Source: Ignavibacterium sp. (GTDB lineage Bacteria; Zixibacteria; MSB-5A5; GN15; PGXB01). From it: 64,000 nucleotides of DNA. Within the stretch, counting starts at the first letter, position 1; every line of letters begins with the position of its first letter. The stretch spans positions 1 to 64,000 of the forward strand of contig DYGG01000007.1 in assembly GCA_020724775.1 (NCBI GenBank), written 5' to 3'. The notes under the pieces are model-generated. The model saw nothing but the letters and a program-made list of their open reading frames with translations, did not search any database and had not been told where the DNA came from. A program made the position numbers and the translations under genes. This document shows, one piece after another, positions 15,987 through 29,221 of this stretch.

Positions 15987-17104
15987 GAAATTCTTTCCTG
16001 TCCGACAACATTGTTGATGACCTCCAGGAATCGTTCCGCGGCATCATCCCAATTGAATTTTCTCGCCCACTCTCTCCCGCCGCTCTCCAAACTAAGCCGA
16101 ATAGACTCGTCGCTTAAGACCTGCTTCATCTTGCTCGCCATCTCCGCTATATTTCCATATTCATACAGAAATCCCGTCTTACCGTCCACCACAGAATCGC
16201 GCAGTCCGGGGGAATTCGCCGCCAGCACTGCCGTACCGCAGGCATTGGCTTCAATATTAGTCAATCCCCAGCCTTCTTTCATTGAGGGATAGACCGAGAG
16301 ATGACTGCGTCTGAGAAAATCGACTTTTACTGTACTACTGACATATCCGGTGAATTCAACTTTTCGCGAGATACCCAGGGCCGATGCCCTCTTTCTTAAC
16401 TGTGGCAGATAATCACCGCTGCCAACAATCTTCAGTTCCGCATCCGGCATCTCCTTTGAAAGCGTACTAAAGGCTTCAAGGAGATGGTCTATCGATTTGT
16501 ACTTCTTTATCCGTCCCAGGTAAAGGACTGTCGGTTTTTTGAATTTGCCGACGGAGGGGTCATAGGAATATCTCTTTTCATCTATGCCGCAATGCACCAC
16601 GAAAATATTCTCTCGGGCAATTCCGCGCCTGGCAATGTCATCCGCCGTTGATTTCGAGATGACATTGAATTTGAATTTCTTATAGACAGTCACGAGAGGG
16701 CGCTCCGCTAGATAGATATAAAGCCCCAAAACAAAGTTGATTTCTTTAAACACCGAGGTTGAAAACAGATGCGGCACGACGACCAGGGTTGGCAGATTCA
16801 GATAAAGGGGCGTATAAAAAGGAATCTTATTGATATCTTCAATTAGAACGTCAAAACTGTTCTTCTTAACAAGCCGTCGAAGTTCCAGGGGAGCAATCAG
16901 ATTGAAGTTATACCTGCTTCCCTTCCTGATTATTTTAACTCCTTCAATGGTCTCACACTCTTTAGCTCCATCATAAGCAGAGCAAAAGAGCGTCACCTCA
17001 TGTCCTTTGCAAACCAGCCGTCGCAGGAGTTCTTCCAGATGAACTTCCGCTCCTCCTGCCTGCGGATTCGTTAAGTCCTGCCAGTTGAGCGCCAGAATTC
17101 GCAT
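15983..17104 (-). CDS. GT4-family glycosyltransferase
   Basis: The 373-residue GT-B enzyme has an N-terminal domain containing GGAEVHLEEL and a C-terminal donor domain with VLYLGRIKKYKSIDHLLEAF and the EX7E motif (KEGWGLTNIEANACG). It should retain anomeric configuration and add a sugar to a lipid-linked or other acceptor at the cytoplasmic face. The start ATG 17104 shares a base with the upstream stop (TAATG). Donor and acceptor cannot be assigned. Confidence 0.88.
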   Translation of the reverse strand: MRILALNWQDLTNPQAGGAEVHLEELLRRLVCKGHEVTLFCSAYDGAKECETIEGVKIIRKGSRYNFNLIAPLELRRLVKKNSFDVLIEDINKIPFYTPLYLNLPTLVVVPHLFSTSVFKEINFVLGLYIYLAERPLVTVYKKFKFNVISKSTADDIARRGIARENIFVVHCGIDEKRYSYDPSVGKFKKPTVLYLGRIKKYKSIDHLLEAFSTLSKEMPDAELKIVGSGDYLPQLRKRASALGISRKVEFTGYVSSTVKVDFLRRSHLSVYPSMKEGWGLTNIEANACGTAVLAANSPGLRDSVVDGKTGFLYEYGNIAEMASKMKQVLSDESIRLSLESGGREWARKFNWDDAAERFLEVINNVVGQERIS

Positions 17105-20100
17105 TATCTGACACCCTCAATAGTATCGAACGCCGGGTCGAGTCTTTGAATCTCGCCAAGAAGACGTTGCGACTCGACATCTTCAGGGTGTCTTGAAACC
17201 CAGGCTTTAACCGTCTCCCGCAGGCGGCTGAAATACCTGTATTGATAGTAATGACTTACCAGCGCCCGGTATCCATCGACATAATCCGGATAAAGCGTGT
17301 GCATCTTTTCCAGAATACTTATTGCATCCGCCACCCGTCCGGCATTCTTCAACGTTATTGCCCACACATGATACATTCTCCCCTTCTCCAAATAGGGCGA
17401 GTCCTCGATATACTTCTCCACCGAATCATCACGACCGATTTCCACAAGGAGACGCACCCCATTGATATGCAACTCCGGGGAGAAAGGTATTGCGGCCTGT
17501 CCCGCTCTCAGGTATTCGAGCGCGGCCGCCAGGTCTCCCTTATTTCTCATTTCATTGGCAAGAGCCAGGAATCCCTGGGCATAGTTGCCGAAGAGACGAA
17601 TTGTATTTTCATCTTTGTAGATTTTCTGGTCGTTGATGCCACGATATTGATATACCTCCAGAAGGAGGCGCCGTGTCCGCTCCAGGTCAACCCGGTCCTT
17701 GCCCTTTGTCGGAACCACCCGGTACACCATTCCTTCCAGTATCAAATGCTCATCGAGCGCTTGCCCCCCTAATCTTCGGGAATCCTGAGGCACGGTGGTT
17801 GTCATAAAGAGGGGATGGCGCCAATTATTCGTTGCGATAATATGTTCCATCACCTGGTCCTGAATCCGCATGGGATAACCGTCAGAAGCCAGATAGGGGC
17901 GCAGTTTTTCAATGGTCTCACTGCTCCACGATATCGGCACATTCATCCGGTCGCGAAGCTGTCTGACATACCATGCCGTATTTGCGAGCGACAAATTTAC
18001 AATGCGGACATCTTTTCGGATGCCGTACACTTCCTGAAGGCACCAGAGAGGGAAAGTGTCATTGTCGCCGTTGGTGAACAGAATGGCATCAGGGTCGCAT
18101 GATTCCAGATAATTCCTGGCGTAGTCATACGGTATATAATTCCGGGAGCGGTCATTAATATAGTAATTCGCCCTAAGCGGAATAATGGGCGTTACAATCA
18201 GAATCGCCGTAAACGCCACTGTGGCAACTCTCGCAGATTTTCCGCCATCTCTGAGACTATCCCGGAACAAACTCACAACTCCGGCCATCCCCAAACCTAT
18301 AGCCAGCCCAAAAAACACAAACGCCGGCGTGAAAAAATAATCCCGGTTCCGCACTTCCAGGTAATCCAGTTGGGTAACCGGATTCTGACGCGTCCCATCG
18401 GCGAAATTCATATATAAAACAATCCCGATTGAACTAATCAGAAAGAGGAGAAGAAAGGGTAGTCCGATTTGCGGTCTGCGACGAATCATCTCCCAGAAGC
18501 CAAATAAGCCTAATACGAGAATGATAAAGAAAGATTTTTGTCCAAAACCGTACTGCTCCTTGAAAAACCGCCAGAAACCCATTCTCTGATAATCGCCGAA
18601 TTGATTTTCCCAAGTTCCGCGGCGGACAAACATCCGCTCTACCATGCTTTCCGAGCCGTACTGTTTTCGCTCCAGAAAACCAATAGTTGCCGCCAGAGAG
18701 CGCGACGGTTTATTCATATCCAGTGACGGATTCTGAGAGGAGCGGACAGGAATATAGGCATGGATGGAGAATCCCAGCAGCGCCATAAGAATAACCGCCG
18801 TCCCGATTTTCCAGAATTTCTCTTTAAGAGAAATACCGACGGCTATCAGAATTAAAATTCCGAGTATAACACCCCAGAGCAGTTGCCAGATTCCGAGAAT
18901 GACCAGGGAAATGGCGGCAATGGCAATCAGAAAAGTCCAGTTGAGCATATGGCGAAGAAGCAACCCGAGCGCCAGCAACAGAAGTGCCGTCAGAAGTAGA
19001 AAGGAATGGTAACCACTGAAGACCAAGCCCAATAAGGTAAGAATACCGGGGGCAAGTGAATAAATCGCGATAACAAGCCAATCCCGGTAAATCTCTTTAC
19101 TCTTGTCGGCTCTTTTCACATTTATCAACCCCCAGATTCCCCATATTGAAAGTAGTATTAGTCCGACAGAAGAAATTAGATTTTCGGCCGAACCGTTTCT
19201 GCCCGCTGACCCGGGACCGTTGAAAATGTGGGCAATAATACTGAGAACGAAGGGAATCAGTGTCACGGCAAAAAGAACGATGGTGATCACGGCATTTCTG
19301 GTGACCTTATGGGCAAGAGCCAAATGGAACAGGAAAACTATTAAGAAAATTAGCGCGGCGAAATAGAGAGGGATTTCTCCTGGGCGAGACGAAAGCATGA
19401 ATATCAAATAAAGTTCCGCCAGAAAGAAAAGAGAAATTATTCCCCACTCCTTTGGCCCGGCATCTTTCTTAAGAACGAAAAAGAGGGCTACAATCGGCAT
19501 CACTATATAGATAGTAAGATGGACGCCTATGCTCAGCATGGCGATGAACGCGATCAGAATCGTGAGGCGAAACCCTTGAGCGGTTTCCCGCGTCTCGAAA
19601 TATCTCAAACCCAACCAGAATATTAACATCATCAACATGATTGCCAGCGCGTAAACCTCCGCTTCGACGGAGTTACCCCAATGGGTATTGGAGAATGCCA
19701 GAAATAACGCGCCAACGGCTCCTCCGAAGTACGGCAGAAAGCGCGCAGCCATGTCGGCGCTGTCGAAAATCCAGTATCGCAGCATCCGCACCAGTATGAG
19801 ATATCCGAACAGTGCCGCTGTTGCCGATGAAATTACGGAAAGAAGATTCACCCGGACCGCGATATCGGCCGCAATAGGCAGCATCGAAAAGAGCCACCCA
19901 AGGATAATATAGAGAGGCGTTCCCGGCGGATGCGGAATCCCCAGAGTATAGGCGCTGGCGATAAATTCCCCACAGTCCCAGAAAGAGAGGGTTGGCGCTT
20001 TGGTGAAAAAATAAACCGAAAAGGTGAAGAGAAAGATTACCGCTGCCACCAGGGCATTGACCTTATCAAAATCTGTATCTAAAGAACTCTTGCGGGATGG

Positions 20101-20109
20101 CAGATTCAA
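17104..20109 (-). CDS. DUF2723 giant membrane protein with C-terminal TPR-like region
   Basis: The protein is 1001 residues. The N-terminal DUF2723 signature is clear (SFWDCGEFIASAYTLGIPHP, then PGTPLYIILGWLFSMLPI), followed by many membrane helices (about 12-15 to residue 620), a soluble region and C-terminal helical repeats (about 830-1000) resembling TPRs. DUF2723 proteins are GT-C-like; the WDCGE motif sits where PMT/GT39 enzymes have catalytic acids, so transfer of a lipid-linked sugar is the best guess. The start is TTG 20109 with an AGAAGG site. It leads the glycan operon, and a good promoter lies about 55 bp upstream. Confidence 0.8.
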   Translation of the reverse strand: MNLPSRKSSLDTDFDKVNALVAAVIFLFTFSVYFFTKAPTLSFWDCGEFIASAYTLGIPHPPGTPLYIILGWLFSMLPIAADIAVRVNLLSVISSATAALFGYLILVRMLRYWIFDSADMAARFLPYFGGAVGALFLAFSNTHWGNSVEAEVYALAIMLMMLIFWLGLRYFETRETAQGFRLTILIAFIAMLSIGVHLTIYIVMPIVALFFVLKKDAGPKEWGIISLFFLAELYLIFMLSSRPGEIPLYFAALIFLIVFLFHLALAHKVTRNAVITIVLFAVTLIPFVLSIIAHIFNGPGSAGRNGSAENLISSVGLILLSIWGIWGLINVKRADKSKEIYRDWLVIAIYSLAPGILTLLGLVFSGYHSFLLLTALLLLALGLLLRHMLNWTFLIAIAAISLVILGIWQLLWGVILGILILIAVGISLKEKFWKIGTAVILMALLGFSIHAYIPVRSSQNPSLDMNKPSRSLAATIGFLERKQYGSESMVERMFVRRGTWENQFGDYQRMGFWRFFKEQYGFGQKSFFIILVLGLFGFWEMIRRRPQIGLPFLLLFLISSIGIVLYMNFADGTRQNPVTQLDYLEVRNRDYFFTPAFVFFGLAIGLGMAGVVSLFRDSLRDGGKSARVATVAFTAILIVTPIIPLRANYYINDRSRNYIPYDYARNYLESCDPDAILFTNGDNDTFPLWCLQEVYGIRKDVRIVNLSLANTAWYVRQLRDRMNVPISWSSETIEKLRPYLASDGYPMRIQDQVMEHIIATNNWRHPLFMTTTVPQDSRRLGGQALDEHLILEGMVYRVVPTKGKDRVDLERTRRLLLEVYQYRGINDQKIYKDENTIRLFGNYAQGFLALANEMRNKGDLAAALEYLRAGQAAIPFSPELHINGVRLLVEIGRDDSVEKYIEDSPYLEKGRMYHVWAITLKNAGRVADAISILEKMHTLYPDYVDGYRALVSHYYQYRYFSRLRETVKAWVSRHPEDVESQRLLGEIQRLDPAFDTIEGVR

Positions 20110-20209: not shown

Positions 20210-20239
20210 TTGTCAACTCCCTCCAGAGTTTCTTATGAT
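20210..20239 (+). promoter_or_regulatory. Promoter of the metallophosphoesterase
   Basis: TTGTCA (20210-20215, 5 of 6), an 18-bp spacer and TATGAT (20234-20239, 5 of 6) on the plus strand. Initiation near 20246 would give a leader of about 18 nt before ATG 20264. Confidence 0.55.
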
Positions 20240-20263
20240 AGAAGCGCCGGAATTAACAAGTCT

Positions 20264-21127
20264 ATGCCTTTTTTCTATTTTGTCAGCGACCTGCATGGTA
20301 GTATTGAGCGCTACCGGAAACTGTTCCATCTCATTTTGAAAGAGAAACCGGAGGCAGTCTTCCTTGGAGGCGACCTTCTACCTGCGGGACTTATCCCGGA
20401 GTCAATTCAGGGTGATTCCTCTTACGACTTTGTTCGCAATTTTCTGGGTGCCGGCTTCAGAGAACTGAAAGTCCAATTGGGCGACAAATACCCCGGCGTT
20501 TTTGTCATCATGGGAAATGATGACCCCCGTATTCAGGAAGTCGTCATCAAAGAATTGGAATATCAAGGGCTCTTGGTGTATCTGCAGTTCCGAAGCGCTC
20601 AATTCCAGACTTATACCTTGTCTGGTTATTGTTATGTCCCTCCTACCCCATTTCTTCTGAAAGACTGGGAACGATATGATGTCTCCCGATATCTTGAACC
20701 GGGGGATATCTCGCCTGAGGAGGGTTTTCGTTCAGTTGCGGTCAGCGCTTCCGAAATAAGACACTCAACAATTAAAAATGATTTGCAAATACTGGTTGGA
20801 GATGATGACCTTTCGCGCGCTATTTTTCTTTTTCACACTCCGCCTTATGGGACGTCGCTGGATATCATTAACTCCCCCATCAGGCTATTTGAAGGAGTGG
20901 CGCGCGACAGACATCAAGGAAGCATCGCTGTTCGAGACTTCATTCGGGAAAAACAACCGCTGATTACATTGCACGGACATATCCATGAATCACATAGGCA
21001 TTCCGGCAGGTGGCTTGAGATGTCAGGCAGAACTGTTATGATGTCGGCGGCGTATGACGGTCCGAAACTTGCTTTGGTCAGGTTCGACCCGGAATCGCCG
21101 GAGAAAGCGACAAGGGATATTATTTAA
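20264..21127 (+). CDS. Calcineurin-like metallophosphoesterase
   Basis: The 287-residue protein has the family motifs in order: SDLHG (D-x-H), FLGGDLLP (GGD), MGNDDP (GN-D/H), a later HTPP and C-terminal LHGHIHES (GHxH). These bind two metal ions. The substrate is unknown; single-domain members range from phosphodiesterases to nucleotide hydrolases. It is the only plus-strand gene in the window. The TTG at 20210 is unlikely as a start because it is the -35 box of the best promoter. The stop codon overlaps that of the convergent PEP-binding gene (21124-21127), so the two 3' ends interlock. Confidence 0.85.
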   Translation: MPFFYFVSDLHGSIERYRKLFHLILKEKPEAVFLGGDLLPAGLIPESIQGDSSYDFVRNFLGAGFRELKVQLGDKYPGVFVIMGNDDPRIQEVVIKELEYQGLLVYLQFRSAQFQTYTLSGYCYVPPTPFLLKDWERYDVSRYLEPGDISPEEGFRSVAVSASEIRHSTIKNDLQILVGDDDLSRAIFLFHTPPYGTSLDIINSPIRLFEGVARDRHQGSIAVRDFIREKQPLITLHGHIHESHRHSGRWLEMSGRTVMMSAAYDGPKLALVRFDPESPEKATRDII

Positions 21128-24100
21128 TCCCCATTTTTCTTTCGGTTTGGAATCGGCAAAGCACGGGCGGCATCGGTTATTGCCCCAATCTTCGCGGCGT
21201 AACTGGTTTTCCGGGCAATATCATCGTCGGTTATGATATGGACATCAAGAAGTCCTCCCGTGCGGTACCCGGTGCGCTGGTAGTTCATCTCATCAAGACA
21301 GAGGCTCCATCCGTTCAGCCAGTATTCCAGGCGGCATCTTTTTTCGTCAGGTCCCTGGAAATGAATCAAGATATCGATGTCACTTGCGGGACCGGCGGTG
21401 GCGTTTTTGGTACTGCCGAAGACGTAAAACCCTTTCACGCCGAACTTCTCGGGGTCAATAAGTGAGGCAATGTAACTTGCCATCCTCATTCGCCAGCGCC
21501 AGGCTTCGCTGGTACCGGAATCCGAGACGGCCGCTTTTGTCTCACCGGAATCAAGAACCGACTTGGGTGGCACCAACAGTCCAATTGCTTCATCAAGGTC
21601 GGCATTCATAAGAACCTGAAGCACCATGCCGTTGGTTATTCGGGGAATATCCATCAATCTTAGAGTATCGGAGAGATACTCAAACTCCGGCAGAATTTCC
21701 GGAAGAAGGCTGGGGGAGCCTTTGAGGAACCGCTCATTGAAAATGACGCCAGGGTCATCGGGATAAAGCGGCAGATAACGGATGTGCGATTCGACCAGGT
21801 CCTGAAAGAAATGTGTCCCGAAAGAGAGGTCGGGAAGGTAGTTTCCCTTCTGACGCGCCACCTCGATAAGCATGGCGGTATTGTTTATGTCGGAGTAAGT
21901 TACATTTACACCCAATTTGATGTCTCCCCGGCTGCCCCAACGTCCCGGACCCATCAGGATAAATTGACGTTTGGGCAAAAGTTGGTTGAGACGACTGACG
22001 GCGCGACCGACTGCCAGGAGGTCGGCGCGGTCGGGCAATTCCCCGTAGTGCCCGGGGTCAACATAAACAATATGTGTTATATCCGGTACTCTGCCGTTGG
22101 AAACAAATCTCTTCGCCGAAAATATGACTCTTTCGGGTGAGACATCTTTCGGAATCGGAACCGCCGCTGCATTATCGGCGGAACTTTGCGGACGGCACTG
22201 CAGAAGATAAAAATCATGTCCGTCGGAGGCAAATTCGATATCGACGGGGAAATTGAGTTTGCTTTCGAGCAGTTTGAGTATGGTATTGATTTGTCCCACA
22301 AAAGGGGTGCGTGAAATAAGCCCTTCGAAAGCCACCACCAACTCATCACTCTCGAAATCGATATTCGGTCCGACTTGCTGATGAATATGGTCACGGTCGC
22401 AAATCGATATCATCTGGCTGACGCGCGGAATCAAGGGACCGCATTCTTTCAAAAACCGCTTAATTTCAACCGTCTCAAAAGAATTATCCTTCAGGTCAAT
22501 GACATCGATTTTCTTCGGGGAATAGCGGATGATCTCATCGCATGTAATATTCACCCGCAAGCCCGGCTGTCCCGGCGCCACCAGAATCGGATAATCGTCG
22601 CTCAACCGGTCAACCGCTCTCGTTCCCAGCCCGGGAACGAATCGAATCAGTCCATCTTCTCTCTTTATCCGCGGCGACCAGCGGAATTCATTTCTGCTGA
22701 AAGCGACCCCGGCGAAAGCCGGCATGAAATACTGCCCGATTTTTACCCCCACCACCTCTTGAATCATAATTCCCATCTCTTCGTGGAAGTCAAGAAGCCC
22801 GCGCTCTGCGCGGTATTCAATCGGGTCGGGTCCGAAGACGGAGGCATATACTTCCGCTATGGCATCGGTCAGCGCCTCCAGCCTCTTTTCTTTGGGACCC
22901 TGATTTGCAAGGAAGAGGCTCTTATACTTGCCGGAGAAGGCCGCTCCCATCCGGTCTTCGAGGAGCGAAGAACTGCGTACTATCAGAGGGCTATCTTTGA
23001 AATCATCCAGCGCTACCGATAGCCCCTGGATAATGTCAGGTGGGAAATGAGCGTTCTTGAACGATTGGATTACATGGGGGTACTCAATCCGAACCTGATT
23101 GATATCTTTATATTTCTGCTCGGCGACATCTTGAAGGTTATTGTAATTCATAAAATATAGAATTACATCGGAGGTGATATACCAGGTCTTCGGCGCTTTC
23201 AAATTGCTCAGCAACCCCGATGCCACCTCCGCATTTTTCAGAATCTGATATGCTAGAAACATTCCGGCCGCCTTCCCCCCCAGTTTGCCGTGAGATTCGG
23301 GACCGTAAATGACATTCTGCATCAGAAGGTAGAAGTCGACAATCTCAATATGATTTTTGGCAATATTTATATAGTCCAGTTGGTCGGAAAAGAACCGGCG
23401 CACCAGAGAGACACGGGCGCCCCTCTGCGAGAGTGTCGGCAGGTCGACTCCTCCGGGGGACATACGGTAATACTTCCGAAGCGCCTCCGAGACTTCCGCC
23501 AGGGAGGAATTGCGGTTCAAGGTTTCCAGAAGAAAACTCATCCGGTCTTCATGAATCCACTTCTGGATTACCGTGAATATTTCATTATCGCTCAGATGGT
23601 CGGCGGCGATTTTGAAAGTTTCATCGCTCAGAAAATCGCTTGAGAATGATAGAGTCCGTTTCTGATACGGGCGATTGGTATCGGCAAAAACCTGGTCTTC
23701 CTCCGAGCGCTGGTCCGGGTTGTAATACTGCTGCAGGCGCTTGGCTTCCTCTACACCGCTCCAACAGAGATAATTGAGCATCTTGTGCGATATATTAAGA
23801 AAGAGATTCCGGTCGGTCTGGCGCAAAAGGTTTAGCGCTACCTGCCAGGACTGACTGTTCTCCTCATCTTTTTCGGTTCCAGTTTTCTTGAGGCTATGAA
23901 ACAACTGTTTCATCCGATGATACATCACGAAATGCCCCAGACGGTCGGCGATGGTATTTATCAGTTTGGCTTCTTCTTTGAGGAATGGTCCGACATCAGA
24001 TGCCGGCAGTTCCTTGGTGTAATAGACTTTGAGCGACCCGACCACTTTGTCCTGCACGACGATACTCGAACTGAGCACCCAGCGGGTTTCCGCGAAATTC

Positions 24101-24321
24101 TGCGGCTGATATATGGTGTCTTCAAATTCAATGCGTGGCTGACAGGAATCGGGATACTGCAGTCCCTGAGGGATGGCCTGAATGACCCCCCCGAAGGCGT
24201 CATCAAGCGTAATATTGACATTACTCAGGACTTCTTCCACTTCATAAAGGCAATTAAGTTCCTTTGCCCGTTCCTGAAGCGAGTCCAAGAGGCGTCCCTT
24301 TATTTTGTCGGCGTCACTCAT
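21124..24321 (-). CDS. GAF-like sensor + PEP/pyruvate-binding domain + nucleotidyltransferase fusion
   Basis: The protein is 1065 residues. Residues 10-140 form a GAF-like region of the type seen in histidine-kinase sensors (ELNCLYEVEEVLSN, GPFLKEEAKLINTIADRLG). A long helical linker follows. Residues about 340-720 match the ATP-grasp-like N-terminal domain of PEP synthase/PPDK (GGKAAG 348-353, VRSSSLLED 448-456, ending in a YLLQCRPQ strand). A further region contains GPGRWGS and FGTHFFQDLV. Residues 960-1060 form a minimal nucleotidyltransferase: GS 969-970, D981-x-D983 (SDIDI) and a third acid D1026. It lacks the His swivel and PEP-enolpyruvate TIM barrel of full enzymes. It overlaps the next gene by 8 bp, so the pair is coupled. 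The function is unknown; the layout suggests a phosphotransfer or nucleotide-modifying sensor. Confidence 0.75.
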   Translation of the reverse strand: MSDADKIKGRLLDSLQERAKELNCLYEVEEVLSNVNITLDDAFGGVIQAIPQGLQYPDSCQPRIEFEDTIYQPQNFAETRWVLSSSIVVQDKVVGSLKVYYTKELPASDVGPFLKEEAKLINTIADRLGHFVMYHRMKQLFHSLKKTGTEKDEENSQSWQVALNLLRQTDRNLFLNISHKMLNYLCWSGVEEAKRLQQYYNPDQRSEEDQVFADTNRPYQKRTLSFSSDFLSDETFKIAADHLSDNEIFTVIQKWIHEDRMSFLLETLNRNSSLAEVSEALRKYYRMSPGGVDLPTLSQRGARVSLVRRFFSDQLDYINIAKNHIEIVDFYLLMQNVIYGPESHGKLGGKAAGMFLAYQILKNAEVASGLLSNLKAPKTWYITSDVILYFMNYNNLQDVAEQKYKDINQVRIEYPHVIQSFKNAHFPPDIIQGLSVALDDFKDSPLIVRSSSLLEDRMGAAFSGKYKSLFLANQGPKEKRLEALTDAIAEVYASVFGPDPIEYRAERGLLDFHEEMGIMIQEVVGVKIGQYFMPAFAGVAFSRNEFRWSPRIKREDGLIRFVPGLGTRAVDRLSDDYPILVAPGQPGLRVNITCDEIIRYSPKKIDVIDLKDNSFETVEIKRFLKECGPLIPRVSQMISICDRDHIHQQVGPNIDFESDELVVAFEGLISRTPFVGQINTILKLLESKLNFPVDIEFASDGHDFYLLQCRPQSSADNAAAVPIPKDVSPERVIFSAKRFVSNGRVPDITHIVYVDPGHYGELPDRADLLAVGRAVSRLNQLLPKRQFILMGPGRWGSRGDIKLGVNVTYSDINNTAMLIEVARQKGNYLPDLSFGTHFFQDLVESHIRYLPLYPDDPGVIFNERFLKGSPSLLPEILPEFEYLSDTLRLMDIPRITNGMVLQVLMNADLDEAIGLLVPPKSVLDSGETKAAVSDSGTSEAWRWRMRMASYIASLIDPEKFGVKGFYVFGSTKNATAGPASDIDILIHFQGPDEKRCRLEYWLNGWSLCLDEMNYQRTGYRTGGLLDVHIITDDDIARKTSYAAKIGAITDAARALPIPNRKKNGD

Positions 24322-26083
24322 TTCTGTATACTATTCCTCGTCCTCTTCTGCCGTCAACTTTAATTGTAAGAGGCTTCCGTAATCTAATATGCCGTATAAA
24401 GGTCATCTCTGTCAATGCCTCTTGTCGATTCAAAAAACCAAAATCAATCCGGTCCTCGGCATTATTCAGAATCGTCAGGTAGCAGACCTGAAAACTAACC
24501 AGGTTGTGGAAGAAGTGCGATCCCTGGCTCGGTTCGATATCCTGGTCTGGCAAGATAACCTCAACGACCGCTCTTGCTCCGGAAATCTGGCTCCAATCCA
24601 CCGGTACGCCAAGCCAGGGCTCGCTGCTTCCCCAGCGGCCAAACCCTATTAACAGATACGGCCGCTCCACCTCTGTCAATTTCCGGTTAAGGACTTCAAC
24701 TTCTTCCGCTATACGAGCTGTCTCCGATAATTTGAATGTTTCCGGTTTAACAAAAACGATATCGGCGATTCCTTCAATTATGCCGTTTCCCATGACCTGG
24801 CTGGAACGAACGATTACCTTCTCTGTTTGCATTTCAACACTGCTCAAGGAAACCTCTTTATCCCTTGATGCCATCGGTCGCAGTTGAAGATACCCCAGGC
24901 GGCATTTCACCGTATCTGCATCGCGGGAAAAGGTCATGGCAAATTCCATCTCAATATCGGAACCAACTTCCTCGGTGCTTATCTGAATCAGATGATTAAG
25001 CAGGTCATTCAGGGGGAATAAACGGGCGCTCAAAAGCGGTGCAAACGTGACCACTCTGATTCCCTCCTGGCCGATACCGGTCACGAGACGGTCGTTTTGA
25101 GGCTGATAAGTTGATGCCGTCAGAATCAGAGTCCCATCCCATTCGGCATCCTTAAGGTCCAACCTGATCAGGTATTCTGCTTCCTTAATCGGGTCATGCG
25201 CCGGCGGCTTTCCCATATTGACGGCCCAGAAAGTGGTCTGACTCATCTTGGCAAGAATTGCCATCGACTTGAATGGTGGCATAGCGCGCGGATAAGATGG
25301 GGCATAACTCCAGACCTGGCCGCCATCAACAATGGTCTTCCCCAGACCTAACGCCAGACTTACCACTCCCTGCTCGGGAGTGGCGTGCCCGGTGGGATAA
25401 TGATTGACTGAGCGAGCGACTCCGGAAATATCGGGATAGAAGCGGCCGTTGTGTCGTTTGCCCACAACCTCCTGTATAATCACAGCCATCTTCTCGGCCG
25501 AGGGTGGTTTCCGAGTCGATTTCAGATAACTGCGGGCTTTTTGAAAATGTGCCGAGGCATAAACAAACTTAATCGCCTCAACCAGCCGTTGAAAGCGAAT
25601 ATCGGTCTCCGGCTGATTGTTCGGAATCATTTTTGTCCCATATACCCCAGCAAACGGCTCCTGCATGGCATCTTCCAGGAGACTGGACGACCGGATTGCC
25701 AGAGGAGTATGAACATGAGAAATGAGCGCCCGGAGATCGCCCACCAGTTCCGGAGCCAGTTCCCCCCGTTGAAATATCAGGGCTATCTGGTCGTCACGAT
25801 ACTCCCGAAGGACCTCTCCGTAAAGATTATTCTCTTGCATGAATCTGTCATAGAATTCAGTGGTTATGACAGTAAGGGTCGGGATGTTCAATTCCAGTGA
25901 CGGGAATCGCTCGCGCTGGAATCGGCGGGCAAGAATATTCCTTACATGTACTAGACCGGAGGCCTTCCCACCGACCGCGCTGTTGCCGATTTTGGTAAAG
26001 GTATCGGCTCCATCCCAGAATCTGCGGTCAAATGGTTTAATCTCGACGGCCGGGTCAATTCCGGAATCATCCGAATTAGTCAT
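24314..26083 (-). CDS. PEP/pyruvate-binding-domain protein (stand-alone, PPDK-N-like)
   Basis: The 589-residue protein is a single PPDK-N-like ATP-grasp domain plus a C-terminal extension. It has GGKASG at 38-43 and IRSSSLLED at 130-138. The C-terminal part contains GFGRWGSSEPWLG and SQGSHFFHNLV, closely matching a region of the next, larger paralogue. It has no phosphohistidine or TIM-barrel domain, so it cannot be a complete PEP synthase. The tandem order and 8-bp overlap with the fusion gene suggest a two-component ATP-dependent system of unknown substrate. The ATG at 26083 is the start. The gdhA terminator lies just upstream, so the promoter must be in the 60 bp between. Confidence 0.75.
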   Translation of the reverse strand: MTNSDDSGIDPAVEIKPFDRRFWDGADTFTKIGNSAVGGKASGLVHVRNILARRFQRERFPSLELNIPTLTVITTEFYDRFMQENNLYGEVLREYRDDQIALIFQRGELAPELVGDLRALISHVHTPLAIRSSSLLEDAMQEPFAGVYGTKMIPNNQPETDIRFQRLVEAIKFVYASAHFQKARSYLKSTRKPPSAEKMAVIIQEVVGKRHNGRFYPDISGVARSVNHYPTGHATPEQGVVSLALGLGKTIVDGGQVWSYAPSYPRAMPPFKSMAILAKMSQTTFWAVNMGKPPAHDPIKEAEYLIRLDLKDAEWDGTLILTASTYQPQNDRLVTGIGQEGIRVVTFAPLLSARLFPLNDLLNHLIQISTEEVGSDIEMEFAMTFSRDADTVKCRLGYLQLRPMASRDKEVSLSSVEMQTEKVIVRSSQVMGNGIIEGIADIVFVKPETFKLSETARIAEEVEVLNRKLTEVERPYLLIGFGRWGSSEPWLGVPVDWSQISGARAVVEVILPDQDIEPSQGSHFFHNLVSFQVCYLTILNNAEDRIDFGFLNRQEALTEMTFIRHIRLRKPLTIKVDGRRGRGIVYRNE

Positions 26084-26212: not shown

Positions 26213-27499
26213 TTACACCCAGCCTCTATCGCGGCAAGCCTGGGCAACGCGGTTCACCGCTATAAAATAAGCGGCATCCCGCATATATATGTTTCGTTTC
26301 CTCGCCAGTTCACTTACCGAATGAAAAGCAGAGGTCATTTTCAGATCCAGTTTGCCGAGCACTTCATCTTTTTCCCAGAAATAGTTCATATTGCTCTGGA
26401 CTTGCTCAAAATAACTGCAGGTCACACCGCCGGCATTAGCGAGAAAATCAGGTATCATGAAAATCTTCCGCTGGGCGATTATCTGGTCGGCATCGGGTGT
26501 GGTAGGACCATTGGCCCCTTCGGCAATTAGTTTTACACGGGGAGCAATCCGGCCAACATTATCCGCGGTAATCTGATTCTCCAGCGCAGCCGGAATCAGA
26601 ATATCGACATCCTGCTCAATCCAGGCATCGCCATGAAGTATCTCATATCCCATTGCCTTGGCTTGATTCTTATCTATCCCGCCGAAACGGTCAGTTATCT
26701 TCAACAGCGCCTGCAAATCAATTCCGGACATTTTTCTGAAGGTATATGACGTCTGGTCGGTCTGGTCCCAGCAGGAAACACAAATCACTTTGCCGCCAAT
26801 CTGCTGATATAACTGAATCGCGTACTGAGCGACATTCCCGAAACCCTGAACACTGGCCATGGTATTCTCAACCTTTATATTTAACTCTTTGAGCGCCTCT
26901 CTGAGAGTAAATATGACGCCGTAACCGGTTGCTTCAGTTCTGCCAAGCGAACCGCCCATACCGACAGGTTTGCCGGTGATCAAACCGGGATAGTGACCCC
27001 TATTAATTGTTTCAAACTCGTCAAGCATCCAGAGCATATGCTGGGCGGAAGTCATGACATCCGGCGCCGGAACATCAATAAGAGGCCCGATATCCTTCGA
27101 TAACTGCCGTACCCAGCCGCGGCAGAGATTCTCCTGCTCTCGCATGCTCAAATTGTGCGGGTCACAGACAACCCCTCCCTTGCTTCCTCCAAGAGGAATG
27201 TCGACCACCGAGCATTTCCAGGTCATCCACATGGAAAGCGCTCGAACCGTGTCAATCGTCTCGTGCGGATGAAAACGAATGCCGCCCTTGCCCGGTCCTC
27301 GGGCGTCATTATGCTGTACACGAAAGCCGCGAAATATTTTTACGGTACCGTCATCCATCCGAACCGGAATATTGAACTGATATTCCCGCATCGGAAATCT
27401 CAGCAGGTCCCGCATCGCCGCATCCAGACTCAGAAAATCTGCCGCCCGGTCGAACTGCGCCTGCGCCATGGCAAACGGATTAAACGGCTTGCTATTCAT
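26213..27499 (-). CDS. gdhA: Glu/Leu/Phe/Val-type glutamate dehydrogenase
   Basis: The 428-residue protein is of the usual length for a hexameric GDH. It shows KGGIRFHP, the catalytic-lysine region with PLGGSKGG, PAPDVMTSAQHMLWMLDEF, and the coenzyme-binding GFGNVAQYA glycine loop. It should interconvert L-glutamate and 2-oxoglutarate with NAD(P)H in the cytoplasm. The ATG at 27499 has an AGGAGG site with optimal spacing. It stands alone, with a promoter upstream (27589-27617) and a terminator downstream. Its neighbour pathway (dipeptide epimerase, peptidases) can produce L-glutamate, so it may feed murein-derived glutamate into the TCA cycle (inference). Confidence 0.93.
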   Translation of the reverse strand: MNSKPFNPFAMAQAQFDRAADFLSLDAAMRDLLRFPMREYQFNIPVRMDDGTVKIFRGFRVQHNDARGPGKGGIRFHPHETIDTVRALSMWMTWKCSVVDIPLGGSKGGVVCDPHNLSMREQENLCRGWVRQLSKDIGPLIDVPAPDVMTSAQHMLWMLDEFETINRGHYPGLITGKPVGMGGSLGRTEATGYGVIFTLREALKELNIKVENTMASVQGFGNVAQYAIQLYQQIGGKVICVSCWDQTDQTSYTFRKMSGIDLQALLKITDRFGGIDKNQAKAMGYEILHGDAWIEQDVDILIPAALENQITADNVGRIAPRVKLIAEGANGPTTPDADQIIAQRKIFMIPDFLANAGGVTCSYFEQVQSNMNYFWEKDEVLGKLDLKMTSAFHSVSELARKRNIYMRDAAYFIAVNRVAQACRDRGWV

Positions 27500-27934: not shown

Positions 27935-29221
27935 CTAAGTATCAATCATCGGCAATGTTAAGGGACCATCGGGAATGACTGCCACTGACTGACGACAACC
28001 GTATTCATTTACCCGTTCTTTTATGACTTCAATGATACTACTTGCCTTCTTCATCTTGCATAAAGCAGTCTTCTCCATAGAAAGTTCGGAAAGGAGGTAA
28101 ACGCGCGCTTTCATGATAATCTGCAATAGTTTCTGTACCTGCCAGCGGTCGGATACTCGATAAGAGGGATCAGAAATTAAATCAAGAATAGCGGCAGGAT
28201 TATTTGCCACATTCAAAATCTGAGCAAAGTTGCCGTCATCAGGTATTCCCCGTGAGCATTCGGAAACCGCAAGTATAATTCCTCCATCAGCAACAATTCT
28301 GGAGGCGGTGGTAATCCCTTTTACCGTCTGATAAAGATTTTGGTCCAGCGGATAGCCGGAATTGGAGACTATTACCAGGGGATATCGTTTTTTCACTCTT
28401 GCATTGGCGACTCGCAAAGAGTCATTGGCGCCGACCCGATGCGCTTCGATATAGTCTCCGGCGTAAATACCGGTCACCTGTTTGGCGGAATTGAGGGTGA
28501 CATTGACCAGAAAGTCAGGCGGCGCCAGGGAGGCAATTTCTCTTGCCAGCAGTTGCTGGGGATTGTCTTCCAGTACACCATAGTCTGAGCGGGGATGAGC
28601 GATTACATCGAAAGAGTGAAAACTGTTGATAGTCTCCATACCGCAGATTGCCGGACAGATTCCTTTTGCTCCGCCGGAAAACCCGGCAAAAAAATGCGGC
28701 TCAATAAACCCTATCACTATTTTCTTGGACGCCTTCAAATATTCCCTATTAACGATGACCGGAACTCCGCTTCCACTGCGCCCCAGAAATTCCAGTTGGC
28801 CAGCAGCAGCGACATTATGGCAAACTACTCGGTATCTGTTTACAATTGAGGTCCCCAGCAGGTCAGTTAAATCCTCTGTTGAGGGAGGACGATGAGTCCC
28901 GGCGCCAATCAGGATTGTCACGTTTTCAGGTCGAAGTCTGCAGTGCTGCACTATCGCGGGTATCAGAAGTCTGTTAGGGACGGGACGGGTGCCATCTGAC
29001 GTTACTATGACGACCGAATCGTCAGGACTTATGATTTCGCGCAGCGGCGCTGATTTTATGGGAGATTCGACCGCTTTTTTGAAACTGGCTTCAAAGTCCG
29101 AAATTACCTCGGCATCTCCCCCCTGGATGATATCCCAATCGGCAAGAGCGGGGTCAAGTGGCAGATCGATTTTGCCGCGGCCGTAAGCGATTGCTACTGA
29201 TGTTTGCCTCGTCGGGGGCAT
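27935..29221 (-). CDS. larA: LarA-family nickel-dependent lactate racemase homologue
   Basis: The 428-residue protein keeps every residue known to bind the nickel-pincer cofactor in the L. plantarum enzyme, offset by two: H110 (GAGTHRP), H176 (EPHFFAGFSGGAK), K186 (SGGAK) and H202 (NSFHSF). Racemisation of lactate or another 2-hydroxyacid is therefore plausible. LarA-type enzymes need LarB, LarC and LarE to build the cofactor; none is in the window. It is the last gene of the unit with the amidase, epimerase and NlpC/P60 genes; D-lactate is a product of muramic-acid ether cleavage, so a link to murein salvage is possible. Some LarA homologues act on other hydroxyacids. Confidence 0.85.
   Translation of the reverse strand: MPPTRQTSVAIAYGRGKIDLPLDPALADWDIIQGGDAEVISDFEASFKKAVESPIKSAPLREIISPDDSVVIVTSDGTRPVPNRLLIPAIVQHCRLRPENVTILIGAGTHRPPSTEDLTDLLGTSIVNRYRVVCHNVAAAGQLEFLGRSGSGVPVIVNREYLKASKKIVIGFIEPHFFAGFSGGAKGICPAICGMETINSFHSFDVIAHPRSDYGVLEDNPQQLLAREIASLAPPDFLVNVTLNSAKQVTGIYAGDYIEAHRVGANDSLRVANARVKKRYPLVIVSNSGYPLDQNLYQTVKGITTASRIVADGGIILAVSECSRGIPDDGNFAQILNVANNPAAILDLISDPSYRVSDRWQVQKLLQIIMKARVYLLSELSMEKTALCKMKKASSIIEVIKERVNEYGCRQSVAVIPDGPLTLPMIDT

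Follow-up and report, generated by a model that had tools for sequence, protein, structure and literature searches.

Two adjacent genes in a bacterium of the Zixibacteria encode large proteins, here called A and B, that carry the ATP-binding domain of PEP synthase and PPDK (PPDK_N), which raises the question of what they do and on which partner they act. An earlier note on this DNA had described them as tandem PEP-binding proteins of a signalling or modification system built around a fused nucleotidyltransferase (NTase). We re-examined the window, i.e. the whole analysed stretch of 64,000 nucleotides of contig DYGG01000007.1, together with related loci, and find that the neighbouring gene for glutamate dehydrogenase (GDH) is central to the answer. 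GDH is a key enzyme of nitrogen assimilation, placed where carbon and nitrogen metabolism meet, and for most uncultured phyla we know of no description of its control. In at least 17 bacterial phyla, the gene of one GDH subfamily precedes one or two genes for large ATP-binding proteins that have a sensor, a domain whose fold is not recognised and, in many cases, an NTase. Based on our data, this arrangement appears to be a control system specific to that enzyme and not described so far.

Organisation of the gene cluster

In the window, GDH lies directly upstream of B on the same strand, giving the gene order GDH-B-A (Table 1). The genes of B and A overlap by exactly 8 bp according to the ORF positions, and a gene for a metallophosphoesterase (MPE) is convergent with A and overlaps its end by 4 bp. 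ORFs and Pfam confirm the earlier description of two overlapping genes that both carry PPDK_N and lack the phosphohistidine and TIM-barrel domains. The GDH has both the ELFV dimerisation and the dehydrogenase domain in Pfam, and because its score against the NCBIfam equivalog GdhA_Arch (467.7) stays below the cut-off of 750, we treat it as a distinct subfamily (GDH1).

Further outward, a LarA-like gene (lactate racemase family) is located upstream of GDH at 27935-29221, and the related genome G007 has a gene of like size and position upstream of its GDH (L115 4349-5629). Downstream of MPE, positions 17104-20109 encode a 1001-aa TMEM260-like protein of the O-mannosyltransferase type with TPR repeats, whose association with the cluster is not generally conserved.

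Table 1. Features of the GDH-B-A locus in window coordinates, and the related histidine kinase of the same genome.
Feature	Position	Strand	Evidence
GDH (glutamate dehydrogenase, GDH1 subfamily), first gene of the cluster	26213..27499	-	Pfam ELFV_dehydrog 1.5e-71, ELFV_dehydrog_N 2.3e-53
Protein B, 589 aa: PPDK_N (36-421) and mid domain (421-589)	24314..26083	-	PPDK_N 3.7e-33 (Pfam)
Protein A, 1065 aa: GAF-like domain, helical linker, PPDK_N, mid domain, NTase	21124..24321	-	ORF, Pfam, AF2/Foldseek
A residues 1-150, GAF-like sensor domain	23872..24321	-	Foldseek NifA GAF; histidine-kinase sensor homology; conservation
A residues 346-727, PPDK_N ATP-grasp domain	22141..23286	-	Pfam 1.2e-59; Foldseek; invariant residues
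A residues 728-920, mid domain, motifs GPGRWGS and SFGTHFF	21562..22140	-	AF2 model; conservation
His837 codon of A (mid domain, invariant)	21811-21813	-	
A residues 940-1060, MNT-type nucleotidyltransferase, GSX10DXD and D1026	21142..21504	-	Pfam, Foldseek, conservation
MPE, calcineurin-like metallophosphoesterase	20210..21127	+	Pfam Metallophos 3.7e-11
Histidine kinase sharing the GAF-like region of A	L003 778-2541		

Glutamate dehydrogenase as the constant partner

Relatives of A were examined in the best 80 of 584 candidate stretches of the public genome set. Among these 80, GDH is found at most 2.6 kb upstream of A on the same strand in 58 of the 64 loci with sufficient room, and three of the six remaining loci have it 5-7 kb upstream. 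In most cases, the GDH at the matching position in other phyla is 67-83% identical to that of the window. Going by the record titles, a subset of 52 rows, composed of the window and 51 loci, spans 18 NCBI phyla, one of which is doubtful (a 'Puniceispirillum' bin), so that we count at least 17. This survey shows that the pair, which the earlier note had seen in one genome, is conserved across many phyla.

Besides the neighbourhood, we also compared gene content. Among 83 near-complete genomes of the window's phylum, GDH1 (identity of at least 56%) is present in 40 and A in 41; A is found in every one of the 40 GDH1 genomes, and GDH1 in 40 of the 41 A genomes (Fisher 5e-23, a value that ignores shared ancestry). 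Acidobacteriota (n = 99 genomes) show a similar picture with A in 24, GDH1 (identity of at least 52%) in 25 and both in 24, and in the sole genome with GDH1 but without A the GDH sits near a contig edge. More distant GDHs (43-49% identity) are freely present without A in both genome sets. The correlation between the A and GDH distances is modest (r = 0.34; Mantel 0 of 999), and the A tree mixes some phyla. Neighbourhood and co-occurrence are evidence of dedication, not of mechanism. A dedication of A and B to GDH is well supported by these data, and we consider it likely that both proteins are dedicated regulators of this enzyme. The constant partner, GDH, had been overlooked as a target in the earlier note.

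Paralogue C and variant architectures

In several genomes, the gene of paralogue C (about 990 aa), composed of a receiver, DUF5752, PPDK_N and the mid domain, immediately follows that of another GDH, which is NADP-specific. NTase-less A-type proteins measure about 790-955 aa, and the GAF-like part is missing from some of them too. A number of them adjoin GDH1, and many keep PPDK_N and the mid domain. Other NTase-less A-types, some of which also lack the mid domain, adjoin an operon with NuoE-like, NuoF-GltD-like fusion, HoxU-like and glutamate-synthase-domain genes (L120 1089-7474; also L119, L121, L123, L124 and L127), which resembles an unusual glutamate synthase linked to NAD or ferredoxin. 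One acidobacterial locus (L198 3605-13284) combines two GDH families and two PPDK_N regulators in a single cluster with the five-gene order GDH1-C-A'-GDH2-GDH1, in which A' is an NTase-less A.

Since the pattern recurs in C, in the NTase-less A-types and in L198, what stays constant is the combination of PPDK_N and mid domain beside a glutamate-forming enzyme, usually accompanied by a signal-input domain; NTase, B and MPE are add-ons to this combination. The earlier placing of the NTase at the core of the system therefore does not hold, as many A homologues without it retain PPDK_N, the mid domain and the GDH neighbour. A divergent split version was also seen beside a B-like gene (L185 5376-8561, L186 2534-5665), where a 481-aa protein resembling the N-terminus of C adjoins a 559-577-aa protein with PPDK_N and a partial mid domain.

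Domain architecture of A and B

For the N-terminus of A, Pfam gives a GAF match of only 0.23. Using Foldseek on the AF2 model of full-length A (pLDDT 80.9, pTM 0.65), the same region matches the GAF domain of NifA with a probability of 1.00, and a histidine kinase from the same genome has a homologous sensor part (31% identity, 6.7e-15). Both results uphold the GAF-like region proposed earlier. Within this domain C24 is invariant and C60 is found in at least 90% of the A homologues; redox sensing by these two cysteines is possible.

In the same model, PPDK_N is structurally nearest to the ATP domain of rifampin phosphotransferase (Foldseek, TMt 0.71). Residues K350, R449, E696 and Q708 are invariant among the homologues of A, and the ATP-site motifs are intact in A, B and C. 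Neither A nor B has a Pfam match to the PEP-utilizer domain (phosphohistidine swivel, PF00391), and the C-terminal PEP/pyruvate TIM barrel is likewise absent from both in Pfam. The label 'PEP-binding' is therefore misleading, since PPDK_N is a domain for ATP binding and A and B have no PEP barrel.

PPDK_N is followed in A, B and C by a common domain of about 170 aa, the mid domain, which had also escaped the earlier note. In 99 A, B and C sequences N779, G793, R794, G796, G804, E820, S833, H837 and F838 (A numbering) are invariant. The AF2 model of the domain (pLDDT 90.1, pTM 0.88) has no match among PDB or viral structures (best E-values 0.15 and 0.043; TM on the query at most 0.32), and a sequence search of the PDB gave no credible homologue, the best hit (0.059) being a longin domain. 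Across 60 genomes of the window's phylum, the domain occurs in A, B and C only, apart from a few partial matches. We suggest treating it as a new domain. Derivation from a degenerate PPDK swivel domain was rejected on the basis of a probability of 0.8% against 24 swivel domains from related genomes (hhalign) and the missing fold match. To regard H837 as a catalytic or phospho-acceptor residue is reasonable but unproven, and the phospho-acceptor role is a guess because the mid domain resembles no known fold.

Nucleotidyltransferase and phosphoesterase

The C-terminus of A belongs to NTP_transf_2 (Pfam, 4.9e-7) and structurally matches 2rff, archaeal NTases and MNT antitoxins (Foldseek, probability 0.96-1.00), in agreement with the NTase fold predicted in the earlier note from GS, DxD and a third Asp. 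These residues correspond to G969, S970, D981, D983 (GSX10DXD) and D1026. Of 90 full-length A homologues, 82 show the pattern GSX10[DE]X[DE], and all 90 have G969 and D1026. The adjoining phosphoesterase has turned out to be a real associate as well: in the window, as at many other loci, MPE and A are convergent, 53 of 55 MPE homologues have the GHxH motif, and the 27 genomes of the window's phylum that encode MPE all encode A (no MPE genome without A).

Two further observations concern the relation between these enzymes. In two genomes (L114 and L116), a free-standing NTase (62-65% identical, GSX10DXD intact) is convergent with MPE and located near C. L184 belongs to the lone genome of the phylum that has MPE and lacks the NTase; its MPE is truncated and the GHxH motif is missing. 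Because the split-off NTase stays convergent with MPE and MPE has decayed in L184, the pattern points to a putative pair of writer and eraser; for strict co-loss of NTase and MPE, the data are no more than suggestive.

The presence of MPE follows that of B more closely than that of the NTase: of 43 loci with B, 34 have MPE, compared with 2 of 14 loci that lack B (p 2.5e-5). B may therefore be the modified protein, and the substrate of MPE is uncertain. In such a scheme, the NTase of A would AMPylate B as a switch and MPE would de-AMPylate it, so that neither enzyme acts on GDH. MNT enzymes modify a partner encoded beside them (PMC7641770), and the free NTase and MPE of L114 and L116 are found near C, a B-like protein. 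We consider this variant possible but rather doubtful, since many A proteins that have no B or MPE beside them retain intact NTase motifs, which argues that the NTase is useful without B. It affects a single layer and can be reconciled with a GDH control module, and our confidences in the two are not exclusive. As for GDH itself, an AMPylation residue specific to GDH1 was sought and dismissed: none of the 13 subfamily-specific positions is Tyr, Ser or Thr, so that no candidate site is visible there.

A reading of the locus as a defence system was dropped, because PADLOC matched its genes to no known anti-phage defence system and gave only weak matches of NTase and MPE to the generic PDC-S09/S10 models.

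Proposed mechanism and comparison with known systems

We favour the reading that GDH-B-A with the convergent MPE would form a dedicated GDH control module, and assign a probability of about 0.6 to this mechanism as a whole. The dedication is better supported than the chemistry of A, B, NTase and MPE, which we infer. Computation places input domains on A (GAF-like) and C (receiver). Such a domain would sense a signal, whereupon PPDK_N would spend ATP on loading or driving the mid domain, probably by phosphorylation of H837. The mid domain would then act on GDH via phosphotransfer or regulated binding, with the outcome that glutamate synthesis or breakdown would be tuned to the energy, carbon or redox state. 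Where present, the NTase of A may add a second covalent layer, probably by AMPylation of GDH or B as MntA does with HepT, and MPE would take off this modification. Judged from sequence and models, we propose more tentatively that this could be a new class of protein-modifying enzyme, in which a PPDK_N catalyst and a His-bearing new fold covalently switch (e.g. phosphorylate) GDH, with AMPylator and phosphoesterase as a second, reversible switch, in a nitrogen-control circuit distinct from GlnE/GlnD/PII.

A published precedent that a PPDK-derived kinase can regulate metabolic enzymes is VadK (Rv1127c), a PPDK-derived regulatory histidine kinase; it phosphorylates itself and interacts with enzymes of the methylcitrate cycle (PMC13400623). 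VadK resembles A and B in having the PPDK N-terminal ATP domain without the PEP barrel, and it acts on metabolic enzymes of its own cell. In contrast, it keeps the classical phosphohistidine domain (His422), whereas A and B carry the unrelated mid domain; a phospho-acceptor His domain of the VadK/PPDK type is absent from them according to Pfam and to hhalign of the mid domain. The input domain and NTase on A and the linkage of A and B to GDH are further differences. With PEP synthase and PPDK themselves, A and B have the PPDK_N ATP-grasp and its intact ATP-site residues in common but not the PF00391 swivel and the TIM barrel.

The NTase of A is of the same kind as that of the HEPN/MNT pair HepT/MntA (NTP_transf_2, GSX10DXD), in which MntA AMPylates its partner HepT through GSX10DXD (PMC7641770). 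Unlike MntA, it forms the tail of a large ATP-grasp protein, and no HEPN partner was identified among the annotated adjacent genes (GDH, B, MPE and neighbours). 

GlnE (GS-ATase) controls glutamine synthetase by nucleotidylation, with reversal. A would be similar in a possible reversible nucleotidylation of a nitrogen-assimilation enzyme and differs from GlnE in NTase arrangement and target, and a separate phosphoesterase is found here.

GarA is a small binding protein that is switched by PknG and is unrelated to A and B in sequence and mechanism. GarA/OdhI of the Actinobacteria are likewise dedicated proteins controlling glutamate metabolism (PMC12321487). By analogy, A and B could be a catalytically idle, ATP-gated sensor whose titration of GDH depends on the ATP/AMP ratio. 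Control of GDH by a binding protein has thus been described, and the absence of a recognisable phosphohistidine domain in A and B would fit; we nevertheless regard binding without catalysis as unlikely, since the ATP-grasp motifs and the mid-domain His are (near-)invariant across phyla, which suggests catalysis.

Somewhat less probable still is a metabolic role, in which A and B, as small-molecule dikinases or ligases, would use glutamate or 2-oxoglutarate from GDH as substrate, and NTase and MPE would process a nucleotide-activated product. Known PPDK_N enzymes are mostly small-molecule dikinases, such as rifampin phosphotransferase, to which the domain of A is structurally nearest, and HpeHI, in which HpeI is a separate ATP-domain protein (PMC4844700, PMC12167813). 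Both share the ATP-grasp fold with A and B. However, they have a swivel His and small-molecule binding domains, neither of which was found in A or B; moreover, A and C carry signal-input domains, and several paralogues pair with different glutamate enzymes instead of following one pathway. The regulatory rather than metabolic character suggested in the earlier note is thus supported. Mere co-inheritance in an operon without functional tie to GDH is very improbable: the gene set is spread over phyla that the A tree partly mixes, but the linkage holds in two independent paralogue/GDH pairs and in the genome-wide co-occurrence.

Significance

We found no description of a system of GDH with PPDK_N/PEP synthase, phosphoesterase or nucleotidyltransferase in the open-licence PMC papers searched. 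PPDK-derived regulators and MNT AMPylators are already known kinds of proteins; to our knowledge, no combination of these with an unrecognised fold and a dedicated GDH has been reported. With a widespread dedicated regulator, a clear partner enzyme and pinpointed candidate catalytic residues, the question of GDH control becomes directly testable. The GDH control module would also assign a function to large proteins that are usually named just 'PEP/pyruvate-binding domain protein'.
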